Positions 29,936 through 48,050 of a stretch of 64,000 nucleotides of DNA are shown in pieces. Position numbers and translations under genes: made by a program. Below the pieces are notes generated by a model, which was given only the letters and a program-made list of their open reading frames with translations, searched no databases and was not told where the DNA came from. The stretch is from Snodgrassella alvi (lineage in GTDB: Bacteria; Pseudomonadota; Gammaproteobacteria; Burkholderiales; Neisseriaceae): the NCBI RefSeq assembly GCF_002777745.1, contig NZ_MEIO01000051.1:1-64000 (forward strand). The letters run 5' to 3'. Each line of letters begins with the position of its first letter. Positions within the stretch are counted from its first letter, which is position 1.

Positions 29936-30026
29936 TTTAAGGCTGCCGGCAGGGTTATTTTTGGTTATAATTCTATTTAACAGTTAATTAAATTGCGGCT
30001 TCCGCAAATTGTCTAGTAGGAATGTA

Positions 30027-31301
30027 ATGAGTGATTCTGTATTGATTGTGTTGGTGGTGGGTGCTGTGTTCATTCTAGTAGTGCTGGCCTATAATATTTA
30101 TCAGGAAAGCCAATACCGCAAACAATTGCGTGAGCAGTTTGGTCATGCCAATAAGGATGCTTTACTGGACAGTCAGGTGAGCTCAGTGCGTGATGGCACT
30201 CAGACACAGTCTGTGCTGAATGAGAAAACTGTGCCACCAGAAAATGAGGCGGATAATGCTGCCGGTTCATCTGTAGAGCAGGCTGAATCTGTGGTTATTG
30301 GTGAGGAAGCCGTACCTGAAGCGAGTGATGTCCAAATACAGGAACCTGAGGAGAATAGTGCAGAGCCGCTGATGCCTGAGGCTGATGAAGATGCACTACC
30401 GGCAAGTTTGTCTGTACACAGTGATATGGAGCCATTATCACGTACAGTTCCGGTAAAAGGACGTAAAACTTTACTGGACGTGCGCGATATGTCCAGACAA
30501 ACGCTGCCGTGGTTTGATGTACGCTTTGATTATCTGGCTTATATTGCCTTGTATGAACCGAAAGAATTACACGCTATGCCACGCCTGAGTAGCCGTTCAC
30601 GTTTTCGGCTGGTGGGCTGTACCATGGATGGTCGTTATCAAATTGCTGAGCCGATTCCCAGTGTTTATTATCAGGGATTTGTGGTTGGCTTGCAGGCGAT
30701 TAGCCGCAGTGGTTTGCTTACATATGAAGAGCTGGTGCATTTTGGTGAACAGGCCAACCGGTTTGCCGAGCAAATGGATGGACAATTACTGTTAACGGAT
30801 ATTAATACTTTTCTGAATGTGGCGCGGCCATTGGATGAGCTGTGTGCACGGGTTGACCAGACAATTGCTATTCATCTGGTATCACGCACTAATGTCAGTG
30901 GTACGGAGTTGCGTGCTGCGATTGAGAAACAAGGTTTCGAACTGGGGCATGATGGTGCATTTTATTATGTCGATAGTAATGGTGAACCTTTGTTCAGTAT
31001 TGTAACGCTGGATAACACCCCGTTTACTTCTACATTGTTAGCAAATCAAAATTATCGTGGATTCAGTATGTTATTTGATATAGTACACATACCGGACGGC
31101 GAAAAATGTTTTGATCAGTTTATGGATATGGCAGTTAAACTGTCCAGCCAGCTAAGCTTGGATTTGGTCAATGACAAGGTGGAAGAATTATCCACAGAAT
31201 GGTTGCGAGAAGTACGCCGCTATGTGGTTGACCGGCAGAAGGAAATGAAACAGGTTGAGCTGAAGCCCGGAAGTGAGCTGACAAAAAGGCTGTTTTCCTG
31301 A
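30027..31301 (+). CDS. zipA: Cell division protein ZipA
   Basis: About 424 residues: an N-terminal membrane anchor (VLIVLVVGAVFILVVLAYNI), a charged acidic linker (about residues 40-150, rich in Glu, Pro and Ala) and a C-terminal FtsZ-binding domain with GFELGHDGAFYYVD and PLFSIVTLDN-type motifs. The start is set at MSDSVL (30027), since the upstream in-frame start only adds a short extension. It lies directly before ligA, the usual gene order in Neisseriaceae and gammaproteobacteria. It tethers FtsZ rings to the inner membrane. Confidence 0.9.
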   Translation: MSDSVLIVLVVGAVFILVVLAYNIYQESQYRKQLREQFGHANKDALLDSQVSSVRDGTQTQSVLNEKTVPPENEADNAAGSSVEQAESVVIGEEAVPEASDVQIQEPEENSAEPLMPEADEDALPASLSVHSDMEPLSRTVPVKGRKTLLDVRDMSRQTLPWFDVRFDYLAYIALYEPKELHAMPRLSSRSRFRLVGCTMDGRYQIAEPIPSVYYQGFVVGLQAISRSGLLTYEELVHFGEQANRFAEQMDGQLLLTDINTFLNVARPLDELCARVDQTIAIHLVSRTNVSGTELRAAIEKQGFELGHDGAFYYVDSNGEPLFSIVTLDNTPFTSTLLANQNYRGFSMLFDIVHIPDGEKCFDQFMDMAVKLSSQLSLDLVNDKVEELSTEWLREVRRYVVDRQKEMKQVELKPGSELTKRLFS

Positions 31302-33818
<2,517 letters not shown>

Positions 33819-33823
33819 AACAG

Positions 33824-34696
33824 ATGAAAGCAGAACCAATCCGTAAATGTGTGTTTCCGGTAGCAGGCATGGGAACACGGTTTTTACCGGCTACCAAAGC
33901 CAGTCCGAAAGAGATGCTGCCGATTGTGGATAAACCACTGATTCAGTATGCAGTGGAAGAGGCCGTGGCTGCCGGCTGTACTGAGCTGGTATTTATTACC
34001 GGCCGCAATAAACGCAGCATAGAGGATCATTTTGATAAAGCGTATGAGCTGGAAACCGAGCTGGCCTACCGCAACCAGAATAAACTGCTGGATTTTGTGC
34101 AGGATATATTGCCGCCTAATGTTACCTGTCTGTATATTCGCCAGCCGGCTGCGCTGGGATTGGGGCATGCCGTGCTGTGCAGCCGTGCAGCGGTGGGTAA
34201 AGATAACTTTGCTGTAGTGCTGGCAGATGATCTGATTGATGCTGGACAAGGAGCATTAAGCCAGATGATGGATGCTTATTATCGTACTGGTTGTAATGTA
34301 ATCGGGGTGGAGAATGTCGACCCACAACAGACCGGTGCTTACGGTATTGTGGAAATAACCAACGAAGATGGCTTTGACTATGTCAAAAGTATTGTGGAAA
34401 AACCGCATCCGGATGAAGCACCGTCACATCTGGGGGTAGTAGGGCGTTATATTTTATCTGCCCGCATTTTTGATTTTTTAACTAATTTACCACGTGGAGC
34501 AGGCGGAGAAATCCAGTTAACCGATGCTATTTCCCGCTTGCTTACCGAACAAAAAATGCTTGCTTATGCTTTTGCCGGCAGACGTTATGATTGTGGTGAT
34601 AAGCTTGGTTATCTGGAAGCAACAGTGGCGTATGGAATGAAACATCCTTTAGTGGGTGAAGACTTTAAAAAATTGTTGCAACGGATGGTGTGTTAA
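33824..34696 (+). CDS. galU: UTP-glucose-1-phosphate uridylyltransferase
   Basis: A 290-residue nucleotidyltransferase making UDP-glucose for LOS/LPS and capsule precursors. The N-terminal signature is [20 protein letters not shown] with [20 protein letters not shown] and [19 protein letters not shown] follow. It is probably co-transcribed with ligA (5-bp gap), and a hairpin follows downstream. Confidence 0.95.
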
Positions 34697-34753
34697 CAGC
34701 GTATTCAATGCAGATACCGTAATTCATTTATACACGTCTCCTCTGAATAGTAT

Positions 34754-34789
34754 TATTTACCTGTCTGCGGTCTTGCAGGCAGGTAAATA
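34754..34789 (+). terminator. Hairpin after galU
   Basis: A 14-bp stem with one G-U pair (arms 34755-34768 and 34775-34788, 6-nt loop). There is no long T-run, so it may be a weak terminator or an RNA-stabilising hairpin. The rest of the 318-bp gap to the rtcR stop shows nothing recognisable. Confidence 0.6.
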
Positions 34790-35014
34790 TTACCTAGGAG
34801 GATGATTTTTCTGTGTCGGTAACAGATAGAGCTTGGTTATAGATGATGAGCAGTCATCATGCGTTCAATTGCATACCAGACAATAGATAGTGAGTAATCC
34901 ATAACTGGTTTTCACCTTCCATCAAATGCTTTTTTTAATGCTTTTGGCTACCGAAAGCAGCGGAAGCTTATATCATCAGGTAACCATTGATAGATAAATC
35001 AATTGTACTGATTT

Positions 35015-36643
35015 TTAATCGCTGCTACAGGCACTATCTTTTATCTGCTCCCAGCTTAAATCAAACTTGGCCAGATATTTTTTCAGCCTGTCGGCATCAT
35101 TGGCACGCTGTTTCTGTGCCCGTGATACCGCAAACAGATAGCGGCCGGCCTCGGATAAAGTTCGGCTTTTGCGGCATACTTCAATCACCTTTTCTAGCTG
35201 ATAGCGGTCGAATTCATCAATTTCAACCGGAATCAGTGCATCGGCGGGTGTTGTCTGCTGCCAGTGTTGCTGTAAGCGCTGAATTTCGTCTTCAACCTGT
35301 GTCAAAGTAATATTACCTTGCGTGGCCAGCGTAGCCATACGGGTAATAGAAGCGGTGAGCTCACGGAAATTGCCCGCCCATCGTGCAGTAGCCGAAGTGG
35401 CAAAGTTTACATAGCGGGTTCTGGATTGCTGATTAAAGCGTGGCATAGTGCCATATTCCTTGGCATAGCGTGCCAGCTCAAAATCAATATTTGGTTCAAT
35501 ATCTTCTTTGCGTTCTGCCAGTCCGGGCAGTTGATAGCTCCATAAATTAATCCGTGCGTATAAATCTTCCCTGAAGGCGCCACAGGCAATTGCCTGTTTT
35601 AAGTCTTTATTGGTGCTGGCAATAAGCTGGAACTGGCTGGAAACCAGTTTATCCGAGCCCAACGGATAAAAATGTTTTTCTTCAATGGCTTTGAGCAGGA
35701 TAGCCTGTTCATCTAATCCCAGTTCGCCGATTTCATCCAGAAACAAAAGGCCGTTATCAGCTTGTTTGAGCAGGCCGCTTCTGGCCATGCTGGCGCCGGT
35801 ATAAGCTCCCTTAATATGACCAAATAAAGTGGACATGGCATTATCACCGGTAAGAGTAGCGCAGTTAATTTCCACAAACTGGCCGCTTATCTGATGCTGA
35901 TTCAGCTTAAGCTGGTAAATTTGCCGAGCAAGAAATGATTTGCCGGCGCCGGTAGGGCCGCATAGCAGGATAGGCGCATGCGAGCGGCTGGCTACCTTTT
36001 CTATTTCAGTAATCAGCTGATTGTAATGCGGGTTTCTGGTGGCAATGCCGGATTTGAGTAATTCAGTAGCTTGGCCGGCGTATTGCTGAAAGCGGGTCAG
36101 AATCTGGTCGTAGCGGTTCAGATTCAGGTCAATGATATTGATTTGTCCGCGGCTGCATAGCTGTTGATGCTCTGCCGGCTCAGTTAACGCCGTTTCTGGC
36201 TGTGCTACCCCTTTGGTCGGCGATAATTGCAGCAGTCTGGCCGGATAAAAGCGTGATTCTGCCAGCAAAAACCAGCAAATCTGCATAACGTGTGTGCCGG
36301 TAGTGATATTTAAATAATAATTTTCATTTTCATAATCAAATTGATAGCTGTTTGCTAAATCCAGTAAACAGGTATACACCTCCTCAAAATCCCATGGGTC
36401 ATGTATATGTACTGCAACCGGATTAACCCGTGTATCTGGGGCAATGGTTTTAATATCCTGAATAATTTCAGCCAGTAACTCGTTATCATTGACGTGATAA
36501 AGCAGTTCAAAGCGAGATACCGGCAATTCCGGATGATTACAGACATCAACTGTTGGCCGCCAGCGCCCCCAGCGTTTTCTGCCTTTACCGCGCTGGTCAA
36601 GCACATTGCCCAAAAAGCCGAATACAACATTTTTTCTGCTCAT
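35015..36643 (-). CDS. rtcR: RtcR, CARF-domain sigma-54 activator of RNA repair
   Basis: 542 residues. The N-terminal ~180 form the divergent CARF ligand-sensing domain (NVVFGFLGNVLDQRGKG, YYLNITTGTHVMQICWFL). Residues about 190-430 form the sigma-54-interacting AAA+ domain: Walker A GPTGAGKSF, the GAFTGA-loop variant GAYTGA, Walker B LLFLDEIGEL. The C terminus should hold a helix-turn-helix. In Salmonella the RtcR CARF domain binds 5' tRNA fragments ending in cyclic phosphate and then activates the repair operon. Here rtcR is divergent from a slipin-rtcB operon with a matching sigma-54 promoter. Confidence 0.95.
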   Translation of the reverse strand: MSRKNVVFGFLGNVLDQRGKGRKRWGRWRPTVDVCNHPELPVSRFELLYHVNDNELLAEIIQDIKTIAPDTRVNPVAVHIHDPWDFEEVYTCLLDLANSYQFDYENENYYLNITTGTHVMQICWFLLAESRFYPARLLQLSPTKGVAQPETALTEPAEHQQLCSRGQINIIDLNLNRYDQILTRFQQYAGQATELLKSGIATRNPHYNQLITEIEKVASRSHAPILLCGPTGAGKSFLARQIYQLKLNQHQISGQFVEINCATLTGDNAMSTLFGHIKGAYTGASMARSGLLKQADNGLLFLDEIGELGLDEQAILLKAIEEKHFYPLGSDKLVSSQFQLIASTNKDLKQAIACGAFREDLYARINLWSYQLPGLAERKEDIEPNIDFELARYAKEYGTMPRFNQQSRTRYVNFATSATARWAGNFRELTASITRMATLATQGNITLTQVEDEIQRLQQHWQQTTPADALIPVEIDEFDRYQLEKVIEVCRKSRTLSEAGRYLFAVSRAQKQRANDADRLKKYLAKFDLSWEQIKDSACSSD

Positions 36644-36803
36644 AAGATTGTTCTACTGGTTTATAAATATAAATAAAATTATATATAAATTTATAAAATA
36701 ATGTTGGATTTAAGCAATAAATAGCTGGCAAATAATTTTAAAATTTAATTATTTAATTAATAAAAATAATAGTTTATAAAAATTTCCTAAAGAAATTTAC
36801 CAG

Positions 36804-36820
36804 TTGGTACAGTAATTGCA
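36804..36820 (+). promoter_or_regulatory. Sigma-54 promoter of the RNA-repair operon
   Basis: TTGGTACAGTAATTGCA fits the sigma-54 pattern TGGCAC-N5-TTGCA, with GG at 36806-36807 and GC at 36818-36819 exactly 10 nt apart. Transcription would begin near 36830. It lies about 160 bp upstream of the divergent rtcR start. The AT-rich stretch 36650-36800 is the expected place for RtcR enhancer sites. Confidence 0.82.
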
Positions 36821-36830
36821 ATAAAGCCTA

Positions 36831-37315
36831 TGTCTGCAATACATACTGTCTGATATGGCAGTCAGGTGCATAGCGAATGCTGCCGGATTCGCCGCAAGGC
36901 CAATTCATTTGCATTATCAACATGTATTCCTGAGTATGAAAGACACCTCCCTTTCACGGAGTATTTTTGAAAAGCTCACTGGATAGAGCAATTGGCACCA
37001 AACCAATCTGTGACAGGTTCGATTCCTGTTTCAAAAATCACTTAGTAATACTTGTCGTATTAAGCAATACCAGTCAGTAAATGGGAATAAGCACAGTAGT
37101 AAAAGCTTAGACACAGGAAAAACCGGTTAACCGGGCAAACTCAGCCATGGCTGTTTTGTCTGGGTAAAAAAACCGGATAGCAGGCAAAATATTTATTAAC
37201 CATAAGCAGGCGATAATTAGGTTATGGTGATGAATCTTTCCCCTGTTATTCCGTTACTTAATCCGTTTGATTGTGTTCATCCTGTTTGCTGGCTGCAATA
37301 GACAGGAGAATTAAT
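36831..37315 (+). other. Structured 5' leader of the slipin-rtcB transcript
   Basis: About 485 nt of non-coding leader. Before the tRNA-like RNA there is a hairpin GGCA/TGCC with inner GCAT/ATGC (36857-36884), an alternative GCGAAT/ATTCGC pairing (36873-36892), and CTCC/GGAG (36947-36961). After it come TAATAC/GTATTA (37046-37062), the palindrome CCGGTTAACCGG (37123-37134), the palindrome AGCCATGGCT in the tract just after it, and ACCATAA/TTATGGT (37199-37228). Overlapping alternative stems suggest conformational switching or processing. No ORF with a good ribosome-binding site was found before 37316. Confidence 0.55.
36965..37037 (+). ncRNA. tRNA-like RNA (non-decoding cloverleaf) in the rtc operon leader
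   Basis: A 73-nt sequence folds as a complete cloverleaf. Acceptor 36965-36971/37030-37036 (7 of 7 pairs), D-stem GCTC/GAGC with loop ACTGGATA (A14, G18, G19, A21), anticodon stem ATTGG/CCAAT, variable loop 5 nt, T-arm ACAGG-TTCGATT-CCTGT. Deviations: A8 instead of T8, A33 instead of T33, no CCA (TCA follows). Two further A-T pairs extend the acceptor to 9 bp. The anticodon loop CACCAAA equals the usual tRNA-Trp loop CTCCAAA except at position 33. A U33-less, CCA-less tRNA is unlikely to decode. It lies about 135 nt after the predicted sigma-54 start, so it is co-induced with slipin-rtcB. YrlA RNAs of Salmonella RNA-repair operons also contain a tRNA-like module. Confidence 0.85.
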
Positions 37316-38890
37316 ATGCTGAAAATAATTGATGTAAAAAAGGGTGAACTGGCTGTTGTGGGTAAACGAGATGAAATTAGTACCATTGTTACCGCCGGCC
37401 GCCATACTTTCTGGGATCCCTTTTCTGCCATAACCTATTATCTGGTGGATCTGGCCGATACTGAAATCGAGCCGGCCATCGCCGAAAAACTGCTTAATTT
37501 TTATCCGCAGCTAGTAGAAAAATACTGTCTTTATGTCCATGTAGCGGATAATGAAATTGCCCTGCGTTATGAAGAAGACATGCTGGTAGAGATCATTATG
37601 CCGGCCACCAAAGCACTTTACTGGCAGAGTTATAAAGCGCAATCGATTAAAAAAGTGACTTTGCAGCAGGGCTACCGTTTACCGGATGATGTAGCACTGG
37701 AACTGATACAGGCCAAAAATACCGCCAGACTGATTACCGGTATCGACAATATCAAACTGCATTATTTTATAGATGAACAGATTGGTACACTGTTTGTGGA
37801 TAACCAGTTTGTACAGATTATTCCGCCTAAATCCGTAATTGGTTTGTGTGAGTTCAAACATAAACTTGTACTGGGTAAATACAAATTACAGGATAACCGT
37901 ATCGATGACGTACTTGCTGCTACGATTGAGCAGAATGCACCAGAACAGATGCAGCAATACTGTGTACAGATGCAGGTAGGCGCCAATCAGGCCGGTTTAC
38001 GCTTCGAGGATGATTTACTGGTGGAAATCCTGCCGCCGGGAACAAAACGATTATATTGGCAGAATAACAGCAAGCAGCACATGCAGATCATAGAACTGGC
38101 TGATGGCTATCAGCTATCTGAACAAATGGTGCAGCAGTTATTGCAGCCTAAATTACGTAAGAAAGAAGTGATTGGAGACAGCAGCATACTGATTGCGCAG
38201 GTGCCGGCTTATCATGTTGGTGTATTAAAAGTAAATGGCAAAGTGCAACAGCTACTGGATGCCGGCATCACCGCTTACTGGCGCTTTAACCGCGAAATCA
38301 GTGTTGAAATCGTCGATACACGCTTGCAGACAGTAGAAATATCCGGGCAGGAAATACTAACCCGCGACAAAGTCAATCTGCGTATCAACCTAGTAGCCAA
38401 CTGGTGCTATACCGATGTGTTAACTGCTTTCGCCAAAGCTGCCCAGCCTGTGGAACTGTTGTACCGGCAATTGCAATTTGCCTTACGCGAAGCAATTGGT
38501 ACCCGCACGCTGGATGAATTGCTGGAAAACAAGGATGTGATTGATGAAGTTATCAATGCGCATATGCAGGCAAATATGACTGGTTACGGAATAGAAACCG
38601 TTAGCGTAGGTGTGAAAGATATTATTCTGCCGGGCGACATGAAAACCATACTGGCGCAGGTAGTGGAGGCTGAAAAAGCGGCACAGGCCAATGTAATCCG
38701 CCGCCGCGAAGAAACTTCCGCCACCCGCTCCCTGCTGAATACCGCCAGAGTAATGGAAAATAACCCAGTGGCTTTACGCTTGAAAGAAATGGAAACACTG
38801 GAACGCATTGCTGAACGCATCGACAAAATTTCAGTTGTGGGCGGTCTGGATCAGTTATTACATGGTTTGATTAACATTCAGGCGAAATAG
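37316..38890 (+). CDS. Slipin (Band 7/SPFH) protein with duplicated N-terminal modules
   Basis: 524 residues from ATG 37316 (strong CAGGAG site; the upstream in-frame start at 37271 has none). The C-terminal half is a slipin Band-7 domain (EISVEIVDTRLQTVEISGQE, LTRDKVNLRINLVANW, LRE...GTRTLDELL, GIETVSVGVKDIILP) followed by a helical tail. The N-terminal 290 residues hold tandem copies of a short beta module: residues 70-104 (YCLYVHV to LYWQ) align with 215-249 (YCVQMQV to LYWQ), and shorter versions occur near 155-172 and 300-323. No N-terminal membrane helix is visible. Slipins recur in rtcR-rtcB operons, but their role in RNA repair is not established. Confidence 0.88.
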   Translation: MLKIIDVKKGELAVVGKRDEISTIVTAGRHTFWDPFSAITYYLVDLADTEIEPAIAEKLLNFYPQLVEKYCLYVHVADNEIALRYEEDMLVEIIMPATKALYWQSYKAQSIKKVTLQQGYRLPDDVALELIQAKNTARLITGIDNIKLHYFIDEQIGTLFVDNQFVQIIPPKSVIGLCEFKHKLVLGKYKLQDNRIDDVLAATIEQNAPEQMQQYCVQMQVGANQAGLRFEDDLLVEILPPGTKRLYWQNNSKQHMQIIELADGYQLSEQMVQQLLQPKLRKKEVIGDSSILIAQVPAYHVGVLKVNGKVQQLLDAGITAYWRFNREISVEIVDTRLQTVEISGQEILTRDKVNLRINLVANWCYTDVLTAFAKAAQPVELLYRQLQFALREAIGTRTLDELLENKDVIDEVINAHMQANMTGYGIETVSVGVKDIILPGDMKTILAQVVEAEKAAQANVIRRREETSATRSLLNTARVMENNPVALRLKEMETLERIAERIDKISVVGGLDQLLHGLINIQAK

Positions 38891-38940
38891 CAGCCTAACC
38901 TAGGCTGATTGATTAAACAGAAAAATAATGAAAGACAAAA

Positions 38941-40167
38941 ATGCAAAAATATGAAGTATTAAAAGAAGATAAAACCCGTCCGGTAAAAATGTGGACTAAA
39001 GGTGTACCAGTAGAAGATATCGCCAAAACACAATTGCTGCAAACCGCAGAACTGCCCTTTATTTTTAAGCATATTGCCGTAATGCCCGATGTGCATCTGG
39101 GGCGAGGCTCTACCATAGGTAGCGTGATTCCTACTACTGGTGCAGTTATACCTGCTGCGGTTGGCGTGGATATCGGCTGTGGCATGATGGCGGTACAGTT
39201 ATCACTTACCGCGCAGGATTTGCCGGAAGACCTGATGCCATTGCGGCTGGCGATTGAAAAGGCAGTACCGCACGGTTCTACTCCGGGTAACAAAAAGTAT
39301 GATAAAGGTAGCTGGCATAATCCGCCGCCGATTGTACAAGCGTACTGGCAGCAGCTATTGCCAGGGTTTGAAAAACTCACCAGCAAATATCCGCGCTTTT
39401 TAAAAGCCAATAGCTTGCATCATCTGGGAACACTGGGCAGCGGTAATCATTTTATTGAAGTTTGTCTGGATGAAACCGATCAGGTATGGATTATGCTGCA
39501 TAGTGGTTCCCGTGGCATTGGTCATGCCATTGGTCAATATTTCAGTGAGCTCGCTCAAAAAGAAATGAAAAAGTATTTTATTGATACCTATCTGCCCAAT
39601 AACGATTTAGCGTATTTTGCTGAAGGAACCGAATACTGTCGTGATTATCTGGAGGCTGTGCATTGGGCACAAGAATTTGCCCGCCTGAACCGTGAAATAA
39701 TGATGCACAACACCATTGCTGCACTACGCCAAGTAATTGATGTGCCGTTTACCACACATCTGCAAACCATAAACTGCCATCATAACTACGTGCAGAAAGA
39801 ACAGCACTTTGGTAAGAATGTATTTGTTACCCGTAAGGGTGCTGTTTCTGCGCGCGAGGGCGAACTGGGGATTATACCGGGCTCAATGGGGGCAAAAAGT
39901 TATATCGTGCGCGGTTTAGGCAATGCAGAAAGCTTTCATTCCTGCTCACATGGGGCAGGGCGGGTAATGAGCCGTGCCGAAGCCAAAAGGAGATTCACCG
40001 TTGCCGACCAGATGCAAGCCACTGCCCATGTAGAATGCCGTAAAGATGCAGAAGTCATTGACGAAATTCCACTGGCGTACAAGGATATTGATGCAGTAAT
40101 GCAGGCACAGCAGGAACTGGTAGAAATCAGGCATCAGTTACGTCAGATTATCTGTGTTAAAGGCTGA
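38941..40167 (+). CDS. rtcB: RNA-splicing ligase RtcB
   Basis: A 408-residue Mn/GTP-dependent RNA ligase joining 2',3'-cyclic-phosphate or 3'-phosphate ends to 5'-OH ends. Motifs: DVHLGRGSTIG, GVDIGCGMMA (metal Cys), GSGNHFIEV, HSGSRGIGH, GIIPGSMGAKSYIVRG and the guanylated-His motif CSHGAGR. It lies 50 bp after the slipin gene in the same operon. The ribosome-binding site is weak, so coupling to slipin is possible. No RtcA cyclase gene follows, unlike the E. coli and Salmonella operons. Confidence 0.96.
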   Translation: MQKYEVLKEDKTRPVKMWTKGVPVEDIAKTQLLQTAELPFIFKHIAVMPDVHLGRGSTIGSVIPTTGAVIPAAVGVDIGCGMMAVQLSLTAQDLPEDLMPLRLAIEKAVPHGSTPGNKKYDKGSWHNPPPIVQAYWQQLLPGFEKLTSKYPRFLKANSLHHLGTLGSGNHFIEVCLDETDQVWIMLHSGSRGIGHAIGQYFSELAQKEMKKYFIDTYLPNNDLAYFAEGTEYCRDYLEAVHWAQEFARLNREIMMHNTIAALRQVIDVPFTTHLQTINCHHNYVQKEQHFGKNVFVTRKGAVSAREGELGIIPGSMGAKSYIVRGLGNAESFHSCSHGAGRVMSRAEAKRRFTVADQMQATAHVECRKDAEVIDEIPLAYKDIDAVMQAQQELVEIRHQLRQIICVKG

Positions 40168-40239
40168 TTATGCAGTAATTTTTGCTGTATCAGATAGTTA
40201 ACCTGTTTAGACTGGCTACTGGATATAATCATTGTAATA

Positions 40240-40270
40240 AAAAAGGATGGTATCGCGTTCCATCCTTTTT
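40240..40270. terminator. Terminator after rtcB (copy of the gyrB terminator)
   Basis: An 11-bp perfect stem (AAAAAGGATGG at 40240-40250 with CCATCCTTTTT at 40260-40270), loop 9 nt, T-run on both strands. It is the diverged duplicate of the terminator at 48797-48819. Confidence 0.9.
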
Positions 40271-40286
40271 AGTGTAATAAGGATAT

Positions 40287-40400
40287 TTAAATATCAACCC
40301 GCGCATTCAAGACATTATTTTCGATAAATGCACGCCGTGGTTCAGCTTCATTACCCATCAGGGTAACAAAAACATCATTCGCAGCCATCGCGTCTTCGAT
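40287..40400 (-). pseudogene. gyrB 3'-end fragment, foreign allele
   Basis: Minus-strand frame encoding [37 protein letters not shown] and stop. It is the C terminus of GyrB, with five residue changes from the intact gene at 48838-51228 and mostly synonymous nucleotide differences. Homology stops abruptly at about 40400. The pattern fits a tail from a related species or an older allele left behind when the neighbouring island was inserted. Confidence 0.9.
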
Positions 40401-40835
40401 TTTCTCTCCCTCAGTCGGTTAAATACCAAGTTAAATGCCAATCATTACTGCTAAAATCGCGCTATGGTAGAAAATAAATACTTGCAATGGCACTCCCTTT
40501 TTAAATAATGCTGTCATTAAATAATTAATTGACTGAGCAATACAGCAAACACCAGAAAATAAATCATGCTCAATCGGCACAGGCAAAATGCAATGTGCCG
40601 ACCTGTTACAGAATCTGCGGCCAGAATAAATCGCCACTTGTAAAAGCAATATACACAGAATTCAGGCTAAAACCTTGAGATCGAAGAACTCATAACGCAA
40701 TTATTGCCTTGTGGCGGATATTATTTTGTACACTGATGAACCAATAAGCAGCCATACTGATAAAATACACAATTACCGCTTAGATATCTCAATAAGCCTA
40801 ATATTTAACACACAGATTTTTATTGGAATTTAATC
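40401..40835. other. Island left margin, no clear gene
   Basis: 435 bp. A minus-strand 72-codon frame (40431-40649) ends in a hydrophobic stretch (ALFKKGVPLQVFIFYHSAIL) and may be a remnant of a membrane protein, but it lacks a convincing start and I recognise no family. The hsdM promoter should lie in the AT-rich final 100 bp. Confidence 0.4.
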
Positions 40836-42380
40836 ATGGCCATCAGTATCCAGCAACGAGACCAATTACAACGCCAAATATGGAAAATTGCCGACGAGGT
40901 AAGAGGCGCTGTCGATGGCTGGGATTTCAAACAATATGTACTTGGCACCTTATTTTATCGCTTTATTAGTGAAAACTTTGCTGAGTATATGCAAGCTGGC
41001 GATGATGAAATTGATTATAAATCAATTCCCGAAGATGCCATCACAGATGAAATCAAACAGGATGCCATTAAATCCAAAGGTTATTTTATCTATCCGAGTC
41101 AACTATTCTGCAATATAATCGTTAACGCCAATACAAATGAAAACTTAAATACAGACTTAGCCAATATTTTTAATGCAATTGAAAGTTCAGCTATCGGCTA
41201 TCCTTCTGAAAGTGATATTAAAGGATTATTTGCCGATTTTGACACCACCAGCAACCGCTTAGGTAATACTGTTGAAGATAAAAACAAACGCTTAGCCGCC
41301 GTACTTAATGGCATCGCCGAGCTGGATTTTGGGCAATTTGAAGATAGCCATATTGATGTGTTTGGTGATGCTTATGAATATTTAATCTCTAATTATGCTT
41401 CTAAAGCGGGTAAATCTGGGGGAGAATTTTTCACTCCGCCGAATGTGTCCAAATTAATCTCACAATTAGCCTTACATAATCAAACAAAGATCAATAAAAT
41501 CTATGACCCAGCGGCAGGCTCGGGCTCTTTATTATTACAGGCAAAAAAACAGTTTGATAAGCATATCATTGAGGACGGATTCTATGGTCAGGAAATTAAC
41601 CATACCACCTATAATCTTGCCCGTATGAATATGTTTTTACACAACATCAACTACGATAAATTTGAAATTGTCTTGGGGGATACACTACTTAATCCTAAGT
41701 TTGGTGATGAAAAGCCGTTTGATGCCATTGTTTCCAATCCCCCTTATTCAATTAAATGGATTGGCAGTGATAACCCAACCTTAATCAATGATGAACGATA
41801 TGCCCCCGCTGGCATACTTGCGCCAAAATCAAAAGCCGATTTTGCCTTTATTCTGCATTCATTAAGTTACTTGTCTGAGCGAGGGCGGGCGGCGATTGTT
41901 ACCTTTCCGGGTATTTTTTATCGAGGTGGTGCTGAGCAGAAAATCCGTAAATATTTAATCGATAATAATTTTGTCGAAACCGTGATATCACTGGCACCAA
42001 ACTTATTTTATGGCACATCGATTGCGGTCAATATTCTGGTGCTGGCGAAAAACAAAACCGTCAGAACCACACAATTTATGGATGCCAGCAAACTGTTTAA
42101 AAAAGAAACCAATAATAATGTCCTAACTGATAAGCATATTGAAGAAATTGTGCAAGTATTTGCCAGCAAGCAAGACGTCGAATATTTTGCCAAATCGGTT
42201 GCTAATCAAACCATTGCCGACAATGACTATAATTTATCGGTGAGCTCATATGTGGAAGCCGAAGATACCCGCGAAATTATTGATATCACCCAGCTTAATG
42301 CTGAATTAAAAGACACTGTAGCTAAAATTGATAGCTTACGCGCCCAAATTGATGCAATTGTGGCGGAGATTGAAGCATGA
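40836..42380 (+). CDS. hsdM: Type I restriction-modification methyltransferase subunit
   Basis: A 514-residue N6-adenine methyltransferase. The N-terminal HsdM domain ([33 protein letters not shown]) is followed by the SAM-binding [13 protein letters not shown] and the catalytic [11 protein letters not shown]. The sequence type, together with HsdS TAEL repeats, points to the EcoR124I (type IC) family. It works with HsdS as the modification enzyme. The stop overlaps the next ATG by 4 bp. Confidence 0.95.
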
Positions 42381-42580
42381 GCAATAATCACATTCAAATT
42401 TATCATGTTAATAATCAAAAAGTTCGTGTTGATGCTTACTTTAAAAAAGCAACTGTTCGGAAAATCCGAACAGTTCAACAACATAGTTCACGAAATATTT
42501 CTAGTGGGGTAGAAATATCTTATCTGGAAACCATCAATGCATTAGCGAACAAAGCGAAACAGGAAAGTCGCAAGAAATGA
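42377..42580 (+). CDS. 67-residue protein between hsdM and hsdS, possible RhuM-like remnant
   Basis: A small basic protein with 4-bp overlaps to both hsdM and hsdS, so it is a real operon member. The start [17 protein letters not shown] and the segment [11 protein letters not shown] with SGVEISYL resemble the beginning and the middle of RhuM-family proteins, which often occupy this position in type I operons. If so, a central deletion removed most of the gene but kept the frame. The similarity is by eye and weak. Confidence 0.55.
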
Positions 42581-43785
42581 GTAACAATTTAAATATGCAC
42601 AATAGTATCGCTAAATTACTTGATGGGGTAGCGGTTGAGTGGAAACCATTAGGGGAAGTAATAAAATCTTTGAAAACGGGGCTAAATCCACGAAATAACT
42701 TTAAGTTGAATACATCCGATGCTATGAATTTCTATATAACTGTTCGAGAAATTCAGAATGGAAAGATAGTATTCCTTGATAAGACTGATAAAATTAATAA
42801 CCAAGCTTTAGAGCTTATAAACAACCGCTCGAATTTAGAGGCTGGCGACATCTTATTTTCGGGGACAGGGACGGTAGGAAAAACAGCTGTTATTGATGAA
42901 AAACCTAAAAATTGGAATATCAAAGAAGGAGTCTATGTAATAAAACCTGTTCAAGAAATAGTTGTTTCAAAATACTTATCTCATTTATTTAATTCAAAAT
43001 ATATAGTAAATGAATATAGTAAAAAAATTGTTGGTTCGCCAGTTATTAGTTTACCAATGAGTGAATTAAAAAAAATTCAAATCCCTATTCCTCCGCTACA
43101 CATACAGACTGAAATTACCCGTATCTTAGACATATTTACAGAGCTTACAGCAGAGCTTACAGCAGAGCTTACAGCACGGAAAAAACAATACGATTATTAT
43201 CGTGATAAATTATTGACCTTTAAAGAGGATGAAGTTGAGTGGAAGACCTTAGGAGAAATAGCAGAAAATCTTGATTATATGAGGAAACCTGTAACAAGTG
43301 GTTTAAGAAAGTCAGGTAGCATACCGTATTATGGAGCATCTGGTATTGTTGATTATGTAGAAGACTATCTTTTCGAAGAAGATTTATTGCTTGTGTCAGA
43401 AGATGGCGCAAATTTATTAGCAAGAAATACTCCTATAGCATTTAGTATTACAGGCAAGACTTGGGTAAATAATCACGCTCACGTATTGAGATTTAAGACT
43501 TATGGTGAACGTAAGTTCATTGAGTATTTTTTAAATAATATAGATTTAACACCTTATATTTCAGGTGCTGCACAACCTAAATTAAATCAAAAGAATTTAA
43601 ATAGCATCAAAATCCCTATTCTTTCATTGACAAAGTTAACTCAAATTGTCGAAATATTAGATAAATTTGATGCGTTAACAAATTCCATTACCGAGGGTTT
43701 ACCGCGTGAGATTGAATTACGCCAAAAACAGTACGAGTACTATCGTAATTTATTATTGAACTTTCCTAAGTTGGAAGATAAATAA
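42577..43785 (+). CDS. hsdS: Type I restriction-modification specificity subunit
   Basis: 402 residues with two target-recognition domains (about 1-170 and 215-370), each followed by a conserved helical spacer. The first spacer reads PLHIQTEITRILDIFTELTA, continues with ELTA repeats and ends ARKKQYDYYRDKLLTF. The second reads IVEILDKFDALTNSITEGLP then RQKQYEYYRNLLL. It determines the bipartite DNA target of the HsdM/HsdR complex. The recognition sequence cannot be derived by eye. Confidence 0.94.
   Translation: MSNNLNMHNSIAKLLDGVAVEWKPLGEVIKSLKTGLNPRNNFKLNTSDAMNFYITVREIQNGKIVFLDKTDKINNQALELINNRSNLEAGDILFSGTGTVGKTAVIDEKPKNWNIKEGVYVIKPVQEIVVSKYLSHLFNSKYIVNEYSKKIVGSPVISLPMSELKKIQIPIPPLHIQTEITRILDIFTELTAELTAELTARKKQYDYYRDKLLTFKEDEVEWKTLGEIAENLDYMRKPVTSGLRKSGSIPYYGASGIVDYVEDYLFEEDLLLVSEDGANLLARNTPIAFSITGKTWVNNHAHVLRFKTYGERKFIEYFLNNIDLTPYISGAAQPKLNQKNLNSIKIPILSLTKLTQIVEILDKFDALTNSITEGLPREIELRQKQYEYYRNLLLNFPKLEDK
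43141..43176 (+). repeat. Three 12-bp repeats in the hsdS spacer (ELTA x3)
   Basis: GAGCTTACAGCA is repeated exactly three times, coding for residues 189-200. In EcoR124I the same TAEL repeat occurs two or three times, and the count changes the non-specific gap of the DNA target by one base. Slippage here would therefore switch specificity in frame. Confidence 0.95.
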
Positions 43786-43802
43786 CACAAGACAATCAGA
43801 AT

Positions 43803-44945
43803 ATGAATAATACACTGATAAATATTGTTGAGCAGCTTGATAGAAACGCCCAAAGCACCCAAAAAGGGAAAAAGGGAAACAAAGCCCAATTGATTTATGC
43901 TTTTAATGGCACCGGTAAAACACGTTTATCGCAAGCGTTTAAAGAGTTTATTGTATCGCAGGATAAAGCGGATAAAGAAAACAGTGGCGCCTTAACACGG
44001 CATAAGATTCTTTACTATAACGCATTTACCGAGGATTTATTTGTCTGGGATAACGATCAATATCAGCAAGGTGAGCATCAGCTAAGCATACAACCCAATT
44101 CATTTACGGACTGGATTCTGAAAGAGCAAGGGCAGGAGCAAAATATTGCTCGTTACTTCCAATCGTATACTCAGCAAAACCTGACGCCGCATTTCAATGA
44201 GGATTTTTCCGCTGTTACTTTTTCGCTCGCAGCGGGTAATGATCAGCGTATTGCTAATATTAAAATCTCCAAGGGGGAAGAAAATAACTTAATTTGGAGT
44301 ATTTTTTTCACCTTGATTAGTTTGGTGATTGCCGAGCGCAATATTGCGGAAAAAAGCGAGCGTTCCACTAATGAATTTGACCAATTACGCTATATTTTTA
44401 TTGATGATCCGGTTAGCTCATTAGATGAGAATCATTTGATTCAATTGGCAGTAGATATTGCCCAATTAATCAAATCCAATGAATCTGACATTAAATTTAT
44501 CATCACTACCCATAATCCACTGTTTTATAATGTACTTTATAATGAATTGAAGTTGTCAAACGGTTATATTCTAAGGCGATTAGCAGATGGCTATTTTGCA
44601 CTAGAAGACAAAAAAGGCGATTCAAACCACAGTTTTTCCTATCATCTGTATTTAAAAGAGTTGCTGCAACAAGCGATTAAGGAAAATAAAATTGAAAAAT
44701 ATCATTTTACTCTATTACGTAACCTGTATGAAAAAACCGCCTGTTTTTTAGGCTATCAGCGTTGGTCAGACTTGTTACCTGATGATAGAGAAGTATATTT
44801 AACCCGCATAATCAATTTTACCAGTCATTCAACCTTATCCAATGAAATGGTGCCCGAGCCTTCCGAACCTGAAAAAAAGATAGTTGCCTTTTTACTGAAT
44901 CATTTACTCGAAAATTACAATTTTTACGAGAAGGAGGAGGAATAG
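43803..44945 (+). CDS. prrC: PrrC-like anticodon nuclease embedded in the hsd operon
   Basis: 380 residues (E. coli PrrC 396). N-terminal ABC-type ATPase: LIYAFNGTGKTRLS (FNGTGKT at 34-40), signature-like ISKGEENNL and Walker B/D-loop FIDDPVSSLDENH. The C-terminal nuclease domain has Arg306-x3-Glu310 in LLRNLYEKT and His342 in FTSHSTLS. The spacing of +4 and +36 equals the PrrC catalytic triad R320/E324/H356. Gene order hsdM-hsdS-prrC-hsdR is that of the E. coli prr locus, where PrrC is kept silent by the R-M complex and cleaves tRNA-Lys when a phage inhibitor attacks it. The exact tRNA target here is unknown. Confidence 0.88.
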   Translation: MNNTLINIVEQLDRNAQSTQKGKKGNKAQLIYAFNGTGKTRLSQAFKEFIVSQDKADKENSGALTRHKILYYNAFTEDLFVWDNDQYQQGEHQLSIQPNSFTDWILKEQGQEQNIARYFQSYTQQNLTPHFNEDFSAVTFSLAAGNDQRIANIKISKGEENNLIWSIFFTLISLVIAERNIAEKSERSTNEFDQLRYIFIDDPVSSLDENHLIQLAVDIAQLIKSNESDIKFIITTHNPLFYNVLYNELKLSNGYILRRLADGYFALEDKKGDSNHSFSYHLYLKELLQQAIKENKIEKYHFTLLRNLYEKTACFLGYQRWSDLLPDDREVYLTRIINFTSHSTLSNEMVPEPSEPEKKIVAFLLNHLLENYNFYEKEEE

Positions 44946-44948
44946 ACG

Positions 44949-47900
44949 ATGGTCAATTACACAACCCCGATTGCCGAAACTGATCACTATATTATTTTAG
45001 ATAACTACACCAAGCTTGAAGAGCCGGCGGCAGCGTATCAAACGGAAAATGAATTAGAAAACGAATTGATTCAGGATTTATGCCGTCAAGGATATGAATA
45101 TCTGCCTGAGCTGAATAATCAGCAGAAATTGTTGGCCAATATTCGGGTGCAGTTGCAAACGCTCAATAATATGCAGTTTAGCGATGAGGAATGGCAGCGA
45201 TTTGTATTAGAGTATCTGGATAAACCGAATGAATCGATGGTCGATAAAAGCCGTAAAATTCACCATAATCATATCTACGATTTTGTGTTTGATGATGGGC
45301 ATATTCAGAATATTTATCTGCTCGATAAAAAAAACCTCAGCAACAATAAATTACAGGTGATTCGCCAGTTTCAGCAAACCGGTAATTATGCTAATCGCTA
45401 TGATATTACCATCTTAGTTAATGGCCTGCCTTTAGTACATGTGGAGCTTAAAAAACGTGGCCTTGCCATTCGTGAAGCGTTTGGCCAAGTTCATCGCTAC
45501 AGTAAAGAGAGTTTTAATCAGGACAATTCCCTATTTAAATATCTACAGTTATTTGTGATTTCAAACGGTACCGATACCCGGTATTTTGCCAATACCACCA
45601 AACGGGATAAGGCCAGTTTTGATTTCACCATAAACTGGGCGAATGTTGAAAACGAACCAATTAAAGACTTAAAAGATTTTACCGCCACTTTTTTTGCCAG
45701 CCGTGTGCTGTTAAGTGTTTTAATCACTTACTCCGTTCTGGATATCAATGATACTTTATTGATTATGCGCCCTTACCAGATTGCGGCAACCGAACGGATT
45801 TTATGGCAGATTATCAGTGCTTATCAGGCCAAAAACTGGAGTAGCTTACATAGTGGCGGCTTTATCTGGCACACCACCGGCTCAGGAAAAACTCTCACCA
45901 GCTTTAAAGCAGCGCGTCTGGCCACCGAGCTGGAATTTATTGATAAAGTGTTTTTTGTGGTGGATCGTAAGGATCTGGATTATCAAACCATGAAAGAATA
46001 TCAGAAATTCTCAAAAGACAGTGTCAATGGTTCCGATAGTACTGCCGGACTGGAGCGCAATATTGAAAAACAGGATAATAAGATTATTGTCACTACCATT
46101 CAAAAACTCAATAATCTGATAAAAGCTAAGGATGATTTAGCGATCTATAATAAACAGGTCGTGTTTATTTTTGATGAAGCACATCGCTCACAATTTGGCG
46201 AAGCACAAAAAAATATTAAGAAAAAGTTTAAAAAATACTATCAATTTGGTTTCACCGGCACGCCAATTCTGAACGCTAATGCGTTTGGCGAGCAAACTAC
46301 AGCCAAGGTATTCGGGCGTGAGTTGCATAGCTATTTAATTACCGACGCTATTCGCGATGAAAAAGTACTTAAATTTAAAGTCGACTACAATGATGTACGC
46401 CCGCATTTTAAAGCGATTGAATGTGAGCAAAATCTGGAGAAACTTAGTGCCGCTGAAAATAAGCAAGCATTACTGCATCCGAAACGAATTGAGCAAATCA
46501 GCCAATATATTCTGAACAAATTTAACCAGAAAACACACCGCTTAAATGGTAACGGTACAGGATTCAATGCTATGTTTGCCGTGAGCAGTGTGGACGCGGC
46601 AAAGCTGTATTATGAGTCGTTAAAAAAGCTGCAACAATCATCCAGTAAACCATTGAAAATTGCTACTATCTTTTCCTTTGCTGCTAATGAGCAACAAGAC
46701 CCTGCAGGCGGTATTGCTGATGAAAGCTTTGAAACCAATGCGTTGAATCAAAGTGCCAAAGAATTTTTAGCTTCTGTGATTGATGATTATAATCAAATGT
46801 TCAGATCCAACTATGATGTTAGCAGCGGGCAATTTCAGAATTATTACCGTGATTTATCTTTGCGCGTTAAAAAGCAGGAAATTGATTTATTAATCGTGGT
46901 GGGTATGTTTCTAACCGGCTTTGATGCGCCAACTCTCAATACGCTATTTGTCGATAAAAACTTACGTTTTCATGGCTTAATCCAAGCTTTTTCACGCACC
47001 AATCGCATCTACGATGACACTAAAGCGTTTGGTAATATTGTGGCATTTCGTGATTTAGAACCAGCTACTATTGCCGCCATCAAACTATTTGGCCAAAGAA
47101 ATACTCAGGACGTGGTATTAGAAAAAAGTTATGAGGAACATATGCAGGGCTACACCGATGAGATTTCCGGTGAAATCCATAGCGGATATTTAGCTATTGT
47201 GGCTGAGCTACAGCAATGTTTTCCCCATCCGGATCAGATTATTACTGAAAAAGATAAAAAAGCGTTTATTAAATTATTTGGCCAGTATTTACGTGCCGAT
47301 AATGCATTACAAAATTATGATGAATATATTGCTTTAAAGGCATTGCAACAGCTGGATACTACAGATAAACAAGCAGTCGAACAGTTTAAAGCGCAGTATT
47401 ATGTTTCAGATGAAGCTTTTGAACGGTTGCAAAAGATTAAGATACCAACAGAAAGAGCGATCCAGAATTACCGCTCAACTTACCATGATATTCGTGACTG
47501 GCTGTATAGACAAAAAGCCGCTGAAAATCAGGAGCAGCTAACCATTGATTGGGATGATGTGGTTTTTGAGGTGGATTTATTAAAATCGCAAGAAATCAAT
47601 TTGGATTATATTCTGGAATTAATTTTTGAGCAGAACAAGCAAGATAAGAATAAACAAGTCATTGTTGAAGATGCACAGCGCTTAATCCGCTCCAGTTTAG
47701 GCTATCGTGCCAAAGAGGAATTGGTTATTGAATTTATTCAACATACCGATTTAAATGCTATTGCTGATAAAGCCAGTATGATTGATGCCTTTTACCAGTA
47801 TGCCCAACAGCAGCAACAGGCTGAGGTTAAGACATTAATTGGTGATGAAAATTTAAATGAAGCTGCTGCTAAACGTTATATTGCATCCTCATTAAGGCGT

Positions 47901-48050
47901 GAATATGCTACTGACAACGGCACGGAGCTGAACGAAATCTTGCCCAAAATGAGCCCGCTTAATCCGCAATATTTACCCAAAAAACAAAAGGTATACCAGA
48001 AAATTGTTGAGCTAGTGGAGAAGTTTAAAGGCATAGGTGGCGAAATTTAA
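44949..48050 (+). CDS. hsdR: Type I restriction endonuclease subunit
   Basis: 1033 residues. The N-terminal nuclease core is [20 protein letters not shown] (the ExK end of the PD-ExK motif), then helicase motifs [16 protein letters not shown] (Walker A), [13 protein letters not shown] (DEAH), FGFTGTPI and a late helicase motif [10 protein letters not shown]. It translocates and cuts unmodified DNA with HsdM/HsdS. It starts 3 bp after the prrC stop and is followed by a hairpin. Confidence 0.96.

Follow-up and report, generated by a model that had tools for sequence, protein, structure and literature searches.

A conserved, apparently non-decoding tRNA cloverleaf in the leader of an RtcR-type slipin-rtcB RNA-repair operon of Snodgrassella alvi

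Organization of the locus

The window, a stretch of 64,000 nt from a Snodgrassella alvi contig, contains an RNA-repair operon with a divergent regulatory gene upstream of its leader. This gene, rtcR (35015–36643, minus strand), encodes a sigma-54 activator with an RtcR (CARF-type) domain (Pfam PF06956, 1.1e-69, and PF00158). Downstream of the leader, on the plus strand, lie the gene of a slipin (Band_7/SPFH protein; 37316–38890; PF01145, 2.2e-30), whose ATG start after AGGAG is likely from the alignment, and rtcB, encoding an RNA ligase (38941–40167; PF01139, 6.4e-128). A sigma-54-type promoter, TGGTAC-N5-TTGCAA, was recognized from the sequence at 36805–36821 (plus strand), with a predicted start at about 36831, and alignment showed its box in all eight same-genus leaders that accompany a full-length RtcR match. 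An earlier sequence-only reading of the window had placed a tRNA cloverleaf about 135 nt after the sigma-54 start and upstream of slipin-rtcB; the distance measured from approximately 36831 was 134 nt, and RtcR, the Band_7 slipin and RtcB were all confirmed by Pfam.

A PrrC-type anticodon nuclease gene (43803–44945; PADLOC PrrC, E=1.4e-141) was found 3.6 kb after rtcB, behind hsdS and ahead of a large helicase-like frame (44949–48050; hsdR by eye) in a type I restriction locus. In the window, a tRNA-cutting defence adjoins a tRNA-repair operon.

Structure of the cloverleaf and its leader

The cloverleaf (36965–37037, plus strand) was delimited from the sequence and with ARAGORN, Rfam and a covariance model. 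Its stems of 7/4/5/5 bp, described as perfect in the sequence-only reading, do form every pair: the acceptor is TTTTGAA/TTCAAAA, the D stem GCTC/GAGC, the anticodon stem ATTGG/CCAAT and the T stem ACAGG/CCTGT. The anticodon stem encloses CACCAAA (36996–37002, plus strand; nominal anticodon CCA at 36998–37000), a hypervariable loop that differs among relatives. The T-loop TTCGATT and the GG in the D-loop ACTGGATA were present as read, positions 8 and 33 are both A in place of T, and the 7-bp acceptor is followed by ATC instead of CCA. A 9-bp acceptor can be formed in the window (T36964:A37037 and A36963:T37038) but not in all relatives.

ARAGORN called positions 36964–37039 a tRNA-Trp(cca), and the Rfam tRNA model scored 49.0 bits (E=4e-8) against a gathering score of 29; the one other Rfam match in positions 30000–44000 was antisense and far below its gathering score. 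The cloverleaf thus has the paired stems, the D-loop GG and the TTCRA T-loop of a functional elongator tRNA, which is not decisive for tRNA function because mimics share those features. It lacks the U33 and the constant anticodon among orthologues expected of such a tRNA (A33; loops vary), and it lacks the encoded CCA that ends 21 of the 24 own tRNAs sampled. Among 65 matches to the tRNA model in its own genome, which holds a normal tRNA-Trp(CCA), the cloverleaf ranked 62nd; its best identity to the 24 own tRNAs was 47/71. A plasmid search with the leader sequence gave no match.

The leader begins with a 5' domain (36831–36945, plus strand; nine same-genus leaders aligned) that contains GGTGCATAGCGAATG and GCATTATCAACATGTATTC, and in which, by eye, TGTCT (36831–36835) can pair with AGACA (36941–36945). 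By eye, this domain also resembles the GGTGCA...TGCATGCCG of other families. It is followed by a possible hairpin, CTCC-CTTTCAC-GGAG (36947–36961, plus strand; leaders L135–L145), with a variable 7-nt loop; a stem of 4–5 bp with such a loop could be formed 5' of the cloverleaf in 11/11 of these leaders. In the window a rival 6-bp pairing, TGAAAG/CTTTCA (36937–36956), overlaps the hairpin, which is tentative because the rival pairing is equal or better in L138, L139, L140 and L142. Further downstream, alignments revealed the conserved strings AGCAATACCAG (37063–37073) and ...CCGGATAGCAGGCAAAA (ending at 37189; together 37063–37189, plus strand). Since the leaders also contain conserved strings outside the tRNA modules (by eye, GGTGCA...TGCATGCCG, GCAGTACCCG and GCAGGCAAAA), the modules seem to be parts of a longer RNA that is itself conserved. 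Folding of the entire leader was only slightly better than that of its shuffles (z −1.79).

Conservation within the genus

When 83 genomes of the family were searched at the DNA level, the leader was recovered from nine of the 14 that belong to the same genus; two further matches, in other genera, were ordinary tRNA-Arg genes. All eight same-genus genomes with a full-length RtcR match carried the leader; three of those RtcR matches contain internal stops. Stems, D arm and T arm were nearly unchanged across the nine aligned leaders. The anticodon loop occurred in six 7-nt versions (CACCAAA, TACCAAA, CACCTAA, AACTGAT, ACCAGAT and TCAGGAA), and U33 was absent from all nine copies. Conservation in relatives, a check set beforehand, was therefore positive, in the genus and at the slipin loci described below.

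One same-genus genome (G079, locus L138) retained cloverleaf, slipin and rtcB without a full-length RtcR match and without the sigma-54 box. The Gilliamella loci L143–L145 were more similar to the window in these genes than most others (rtcR 72–73% and slipin 69–71% identical, most others being roughly 50–60%), and a transfer between gut symbionts that included the cloverleaf is a possible source of this likeness.

Distribution upstream of slipin genes

A wider set of 120 oriented loci was assembled from 32 order-level loci (a slipin search of 399 order-level genomes gave 33 matches), 8 same-genus loci and 80 named loci (the best 80 of 553 relatives), the window not being counted; two genomes occur twice in it (L108/L172 and L114/L216, with no fourfold-site difference). 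The window copy and 63 of the 79 unique cloverleafs supplied the sequences for a covariance model, R1, which was applied at E≤0.001. It matched upstream of slipin in 95 of the 120 loci listed (counted by hand), mostly in beta- and gammaproteobacteria, a count in which many of the loci had also supplied model sequences, and R1 also matches ordinary tRNAs elsewhere in the loci. In most listed loci the cloverleaf lay approximately 250–550 nt before the slipin match. Our own parser found cloverleafs in 85 of the 120 loci listed, and because the covariance model added ten (L115, L128, L129, L167, L190, L193, L194, L205, L207 and L218), parser counts are lower bounds.

Nothing was matched by R1 upstream of slipin at E≤0.001 in the other 25 of the 120 loci listed, a weak match in L146 (E=0.016) having been left out of the count; the module is therefore not required everywhere. 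Seventeen of these loci were enteric (L173, L175, L177, L179, L181, L183–L187, L189, L197, L206, L209, L210, L215 and L217), and 11 of the 17 had a perfect T-arm within 700 nt, that of L189 lying inside the slipin gene. The remainder comprised Pseudomonas donghuensis, P. soli and P. farsensis (L148, L196 and L213), two contig ends (L134 and L208), and L133, L146 and L170. In the three Pseudomonas loci no tRNA module was found despite the presence of slipin and rtcB; their leaders retain the 5' and 3' parts. These three leaders suggest a larger RNA into which tRNA modules may or may not be inserted. Two other Pseudomonas species, P. citronellolis (L162) and P. nitroreducens (L163), do have the element.

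In the 700 nt before slipin, 118 loci together contained 175 perfect T-arms, some of them belonging to ordinary tRNAs, where shuffles predicted 0.75; a chance fold was rejected on this excess. A phylum-level slipin search gave 22 loci, 6 of them in genomes already present in the earlier sets, and in 21 of the 22 a perfect T-arm lay within the 1500 nt upstream. Outside the class of the window it was seen in 6 of 7 loci, the seventh beginning at a contig end.

A second module was found before the cloverleaf in at least 31 of the 120 loci listed (strict rule). It is made up of a 6–7 bp acceptor, a short loop with GG (31/31) and a T-arm, without an anticodon arm. At least two T-arms within 700 nt occurred in 66 of 118 loci, a few of these being ordinary tRNAs.

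At 11 loci (L110, L111, L113, L121, L122, L123, L127, L200, L211, L221 and L222), at least four ordinary-looking tRNA genes preceded cloverleaf and slipin; none of these loci showed rtcR in the DNA retrieved. Besides its tandem cloverleafs, L127 holds an array of 18 tRNA genes interspersed with an rtcB-like gene. Such arrays resemble reserve sets of tRNAs with a link to repair. In another variation, slipin is followed by RlaP (PF10127) in L185 (6993–7778) and, by eye, in L179, L186 and L217; the DNA retrieved for these enterics contained no recognized rtcB.

Covariation and evolutionary rates

In an alignment of 64 sequences (A2; the window copy plus 63 of the 79 unique cloverleafs), 92.0% of pair cells held standard pairs, compared to 29.5–43.2% when the 3' partners were slid. 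Two-sided change was observed at 16 of 21 pairs, and the covariation score was 0.508 vs. 0.162 in shuffles; it was reached by 0/500 shuffles, a count that is no probability, given the kinship of the sequences and their common tRNA-like character; the slid control is safer. The anticodon stem was 96.9% paired with compensatory change at all five pairs, a positive outcome for a check named in the sequence-only reading. The D stem was 100% paired, with three of its four pairs invariant, and the three outermost acceptor pairs were weak (37.5, 51.6 and 70.3% paired). Conservation at one place and covariation together rejected decay of an ordinary tRNA, which the perfect stems had already been taken to argue against, and likewise an integrase-site remnant.

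The loop closed by this well-conserved anticodon stem varied widely. Across 78 unique cloverleafs it had 61 distinct sequences and lengths of 4 (8), 5 (7), 6 (14), 7 (47) and 9 (2) nt; after trimming of pairs inside the loop, 11 were capped by GNRA and 4 by UUCG tetraloops. Conserved A8/A33, as predicted beforehand, did not hold: positions 8–9 were TA in 67, AA in 8 and TG in 3 of the 78, and position 33 varied. NCCA directly followed the 7-bp acceptor in 7 of the 78. Among the 7-nt loops, U33 was present in 27/47, divided into 9/26 where rtcR was seen and 18/21 at loci whose retrieved DNA showed no rtcR. Loss of decoding therefore accompanies RtcR-type operons, and some members without rtcR in view may still be true tRNAs.

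Rates were compared in 18 disjoint close pairs with a fourfold divergence of 0.08–0.26, one of which (L121/L122) was parsed in two registers and has its count inflated by about two. The D stem differed at 0/144 sites and the T-arm at 16/306. The anticodon loop differed at 31/75 sites in the 11 pairs without GNRA loops, vs. 13–26% at fourfold sites of neighbouring genes, and at 6/37 sites in the seven GNRA pairs. Outside the GNRA lineages, the loop thus evolves at least as fast as synonymous sites. Complementarity of the loop to the rest of the leader in 85 loci summed to 385 vs. 378.9 in shuffled controls and was equalled or exceeded in 57 of 300 shuffles, so loop-leader pairing is unsupported.

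Comparison with YrlA RNAs

The closest known parallel is YrlA, a bacterial Y RNA (RF02553) of rsr-yrlBA-rtcBA operons. Both RNAs belong to RNA-repair operons of the RtcR-controlled kind and have no apparent decoding role, and in both, compared by eye, a D-arm and a T-arm of much the same consensus form a tRNA elbow. They differ in order: that of YrlA, judged by eye, is a permutation in which the T arm comes first and the D arm last, with the acceptor hairpin between them, whereas the window RNA has the tRNA order, with the D arm before the T arm. They also differ in company, since YrlA accompanies the Ro60-like protein Rsr and the genome of the window has no TROVE protein (PF05731; one of 14 control genomes matched). 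RF02553 had no match in window positions 30000–44000 at E≤5, nor in L002, L185 and L206 at E≤1, with L011, L015, L018 and L021 as positive controls. The comparison with YrlA made from the sequence was apt in function and place: a tRNA elbow module does occur in an RtcR operon, although the Rfam YrlA model is unmatched and no TROVE (Rsr) protein is present.

Sixteen RtcR loci of other family genera (L010–L025) had no slipin in the fetched DNA and no tRNA according to ARAGORN; T-arms occurred in the 800 nt after rtcR in 8 of the 16. All four slipin-less RtcR leaders tested contained YrlA matches, which were above the gathering score in L015 (114.8 bits) and L018 (98.2) and below it in L011 (66.6) and L021 (58); several such matches lay in these leaders of family relatives. 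YrlA at this place in slipin-less loci thus indicates that the same regulon position is filled by two architectures with a much similar D-arm/T-arm consensus. By eye, YrlA in L011 and L021 appeared to be followed by a Ro60-like frame, but the two fragments tested had no Pfam match and the identification was not confirmed.

Proposed role and alternative explanations

Conservation and compensatory changes bear out the earlier reading of the cloverleaf as a dedicated RNA: it looks dedicated, conserved and non-decoding in an RtcR-type leader. We somewhat favour the explanation that it is a non-coding tRNA mimic made from the RtcR/sigma-54 promoter within the slipin-rtcB leader, a counterpart of YrlA that engages an elbow-binding protein. 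In published work, RtcR is activated by an oligoribonucleotide that bears a 2',3'-cyclic phosphate and is predicted to represent cleaved tRNA (PMC9879122; PMC7790460). Breakage of tRNA would then yield the RNA ends that activate RtcR, as published for Salmonella, and RtcR would switch on the leader together with slipin-rtcB. Selection would retain the tRNA elbow, that is, the D arm and T arm with a short helix resembling an acceptor and a third arm that is stable, while decoding capacity is lost. The elbow module or modules would occupy a protein that recognizes the tRNA elbow rather than the anticodon, RtcB meanwhile re-sealing broken tRNAs; slipin-type operons would thus possess an equivalent of the YrlA of Rsr-type operons. 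The proposal presumes that RtcR induces the RNA, that the RNA is set free on its own, that it has an elbow-binding partner and that the cell benefits, and the cloverleaf RNA may always stay part of the mRNA leader. Against the proposal speak the 25 loci in which R1 matched nothing upstream of slipin, the slight folding advantage of the leader, and the U33 of 18/21 seven-nt loops at loci without rtcR in view. Even for YrlA, the purpose of repair-operon non-coding RNAs is described as unsettled (PMC7790460).

On a broader scale, we consider it an even question whether these elements form a proteobacteria-wide, uncatalogued family of tRNA-elbow RNAs that supplies the RNA component of RtcR repair systems of the slipin type and is an independent, unpermuted counterpart of YrlA. 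Its members would carry one or two modules in a longer structured leader, with the anticodon arm missing, tetraloop-capped or fast-evolving. Such a second solution before slipin-rtcB, unpermuted and without Ro60, suggests that a decoding-free tRNA elbow is a general part of tRNA-damage responses. Two RNA architectures with the same operon type and trigger provide a clean comparison set, by which elbow function becomes testable.

The main rival is a role in leader processing or regulation, in which the cloverleaf and mini-tRNA are tRNA-type signals for RNase P/RNase E that trim the leader or tune slipin-rtcB translation, and the excised RNA has no job; we regard it as the less likely reading, to be taken seriously nonetheless. 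RNase P reads the T arm and acceptor side of its substrates, not the anticodon, which fits conserved D and T arms with free loops, and in most loci the modules occupy comparable positions upstream of slipin, in a longer leader with conserved strings. An RNase P or RNase Z substrate, however, needs no conserved, covarying anticodon stem, and the acceptor helix is often short, as the weak outermost pairs show. The frequency of two modules (at least two T-arms in 66/118 loci, a few of them ordinary tRNAs) also speaks against a simple processing signal.

It is improbable that the RNA is a bait or sentinel for anticodon nucleases, with the loops of the cloverleaf and perhaps of the 7-nt hairpin being cleaved, the fragments feeding RtcR, and an arms race driving diversification. 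Loop divergence above the fourfold level beside a D stem without differences (0/144), the possible hairpin with its variable 7-nt loop in the genus and in Gilliamella, and the PrrC gene 3.6 kb downstream would suit such a role. The divergence is accounted for equally by drift of an unconstrained loop, and the seven GNRA pairs differ at only 6/37 sites. PrrC targets the loop of tRNA-Lys, which the loops in the window do not copy. A conserved, cleavable loop matching a nuclease target was not found, since loops vary and 15/78 cloverleafs carry tetraloop caps. A cleavable bait is disfavoured because these caps and armless modules occur. The suggestions that the RNA serves as a decoy or as a sentinel for a particular anticodon nuclease thus fared poorly, loops differing even between sister genomes. 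The tRNA-like domain of YrlA has been proposed as a competitive nuclease inhibitor, and in Salmonella the tRNA-cleaving nuclease leaves YrlA intact (PMC7790460).

That an ordinary or decaying tRNA was captured in the operon is very improbable: several loci that showed no rtcR (L113, L127 and L222 among them) do have tRNA arrays ahead of slipin, and some loops look decoding (CTGATAA, CTCATAA), but the stems are perfect and covary under changing anticodons, U33 is found in 0/9 same-genus copies, the window copy has no CCA, its genome has a normal tRNA-Trp(CCA), and none of the 24 own tRNAs sampled is closer than 47/71.

Related systems

Partial tRNA folds without decoding are familiar from tmRNA and from the tRNA-like domains of viral RNAs. 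These differ in their unrelated context, and no such Rfam match was obtained in window positions 30000–44000 at E≤5. In the slipin leaders scanned with Rfam 15, only tRNA matches exceeded the threshold and no family of their own appeared. A description of the slipin-leader cloverleaf was not found in the literature searched, and an earlier one may exist. The trn operon of Anabaena is alike in that tRNA genes, rtcB and slipin respond together, under TrcR. It differs in having another regulator and in its layout, the tRNA operon being on a megaplasmid and rtcB and slipin elsewhere; the consulted part of that study mentioned no non-decoding cloverleaf (PMC10272220).

In Pseudomonas aeruginosa, PA4582, rtcB (PA4583), PA4584 and rtcA form one operon with a divergent rtcR (PMC8619066), and the tRNA gene PA4581.1 is listed among the genes with the highest rise in expression in a late isolate (PMC8743555). 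By its number, PA4581.1 lies between rtcR and PA4582, as does the cloverleaf of strain PA7 (L149, 5612–5685), where the order is rtcR, cloverleaf, slipin, rtcB. It differs in being annotated as a plain tRNA gene. From the numbering and the PA7 locus, PA4581.1 would be the leader cloverleaf element, and its rise would then favour the proposed mimic; genes annotated as tRNAs beside rtcR, perhaps including PA4581.1, may accordingly not be tRNAs.
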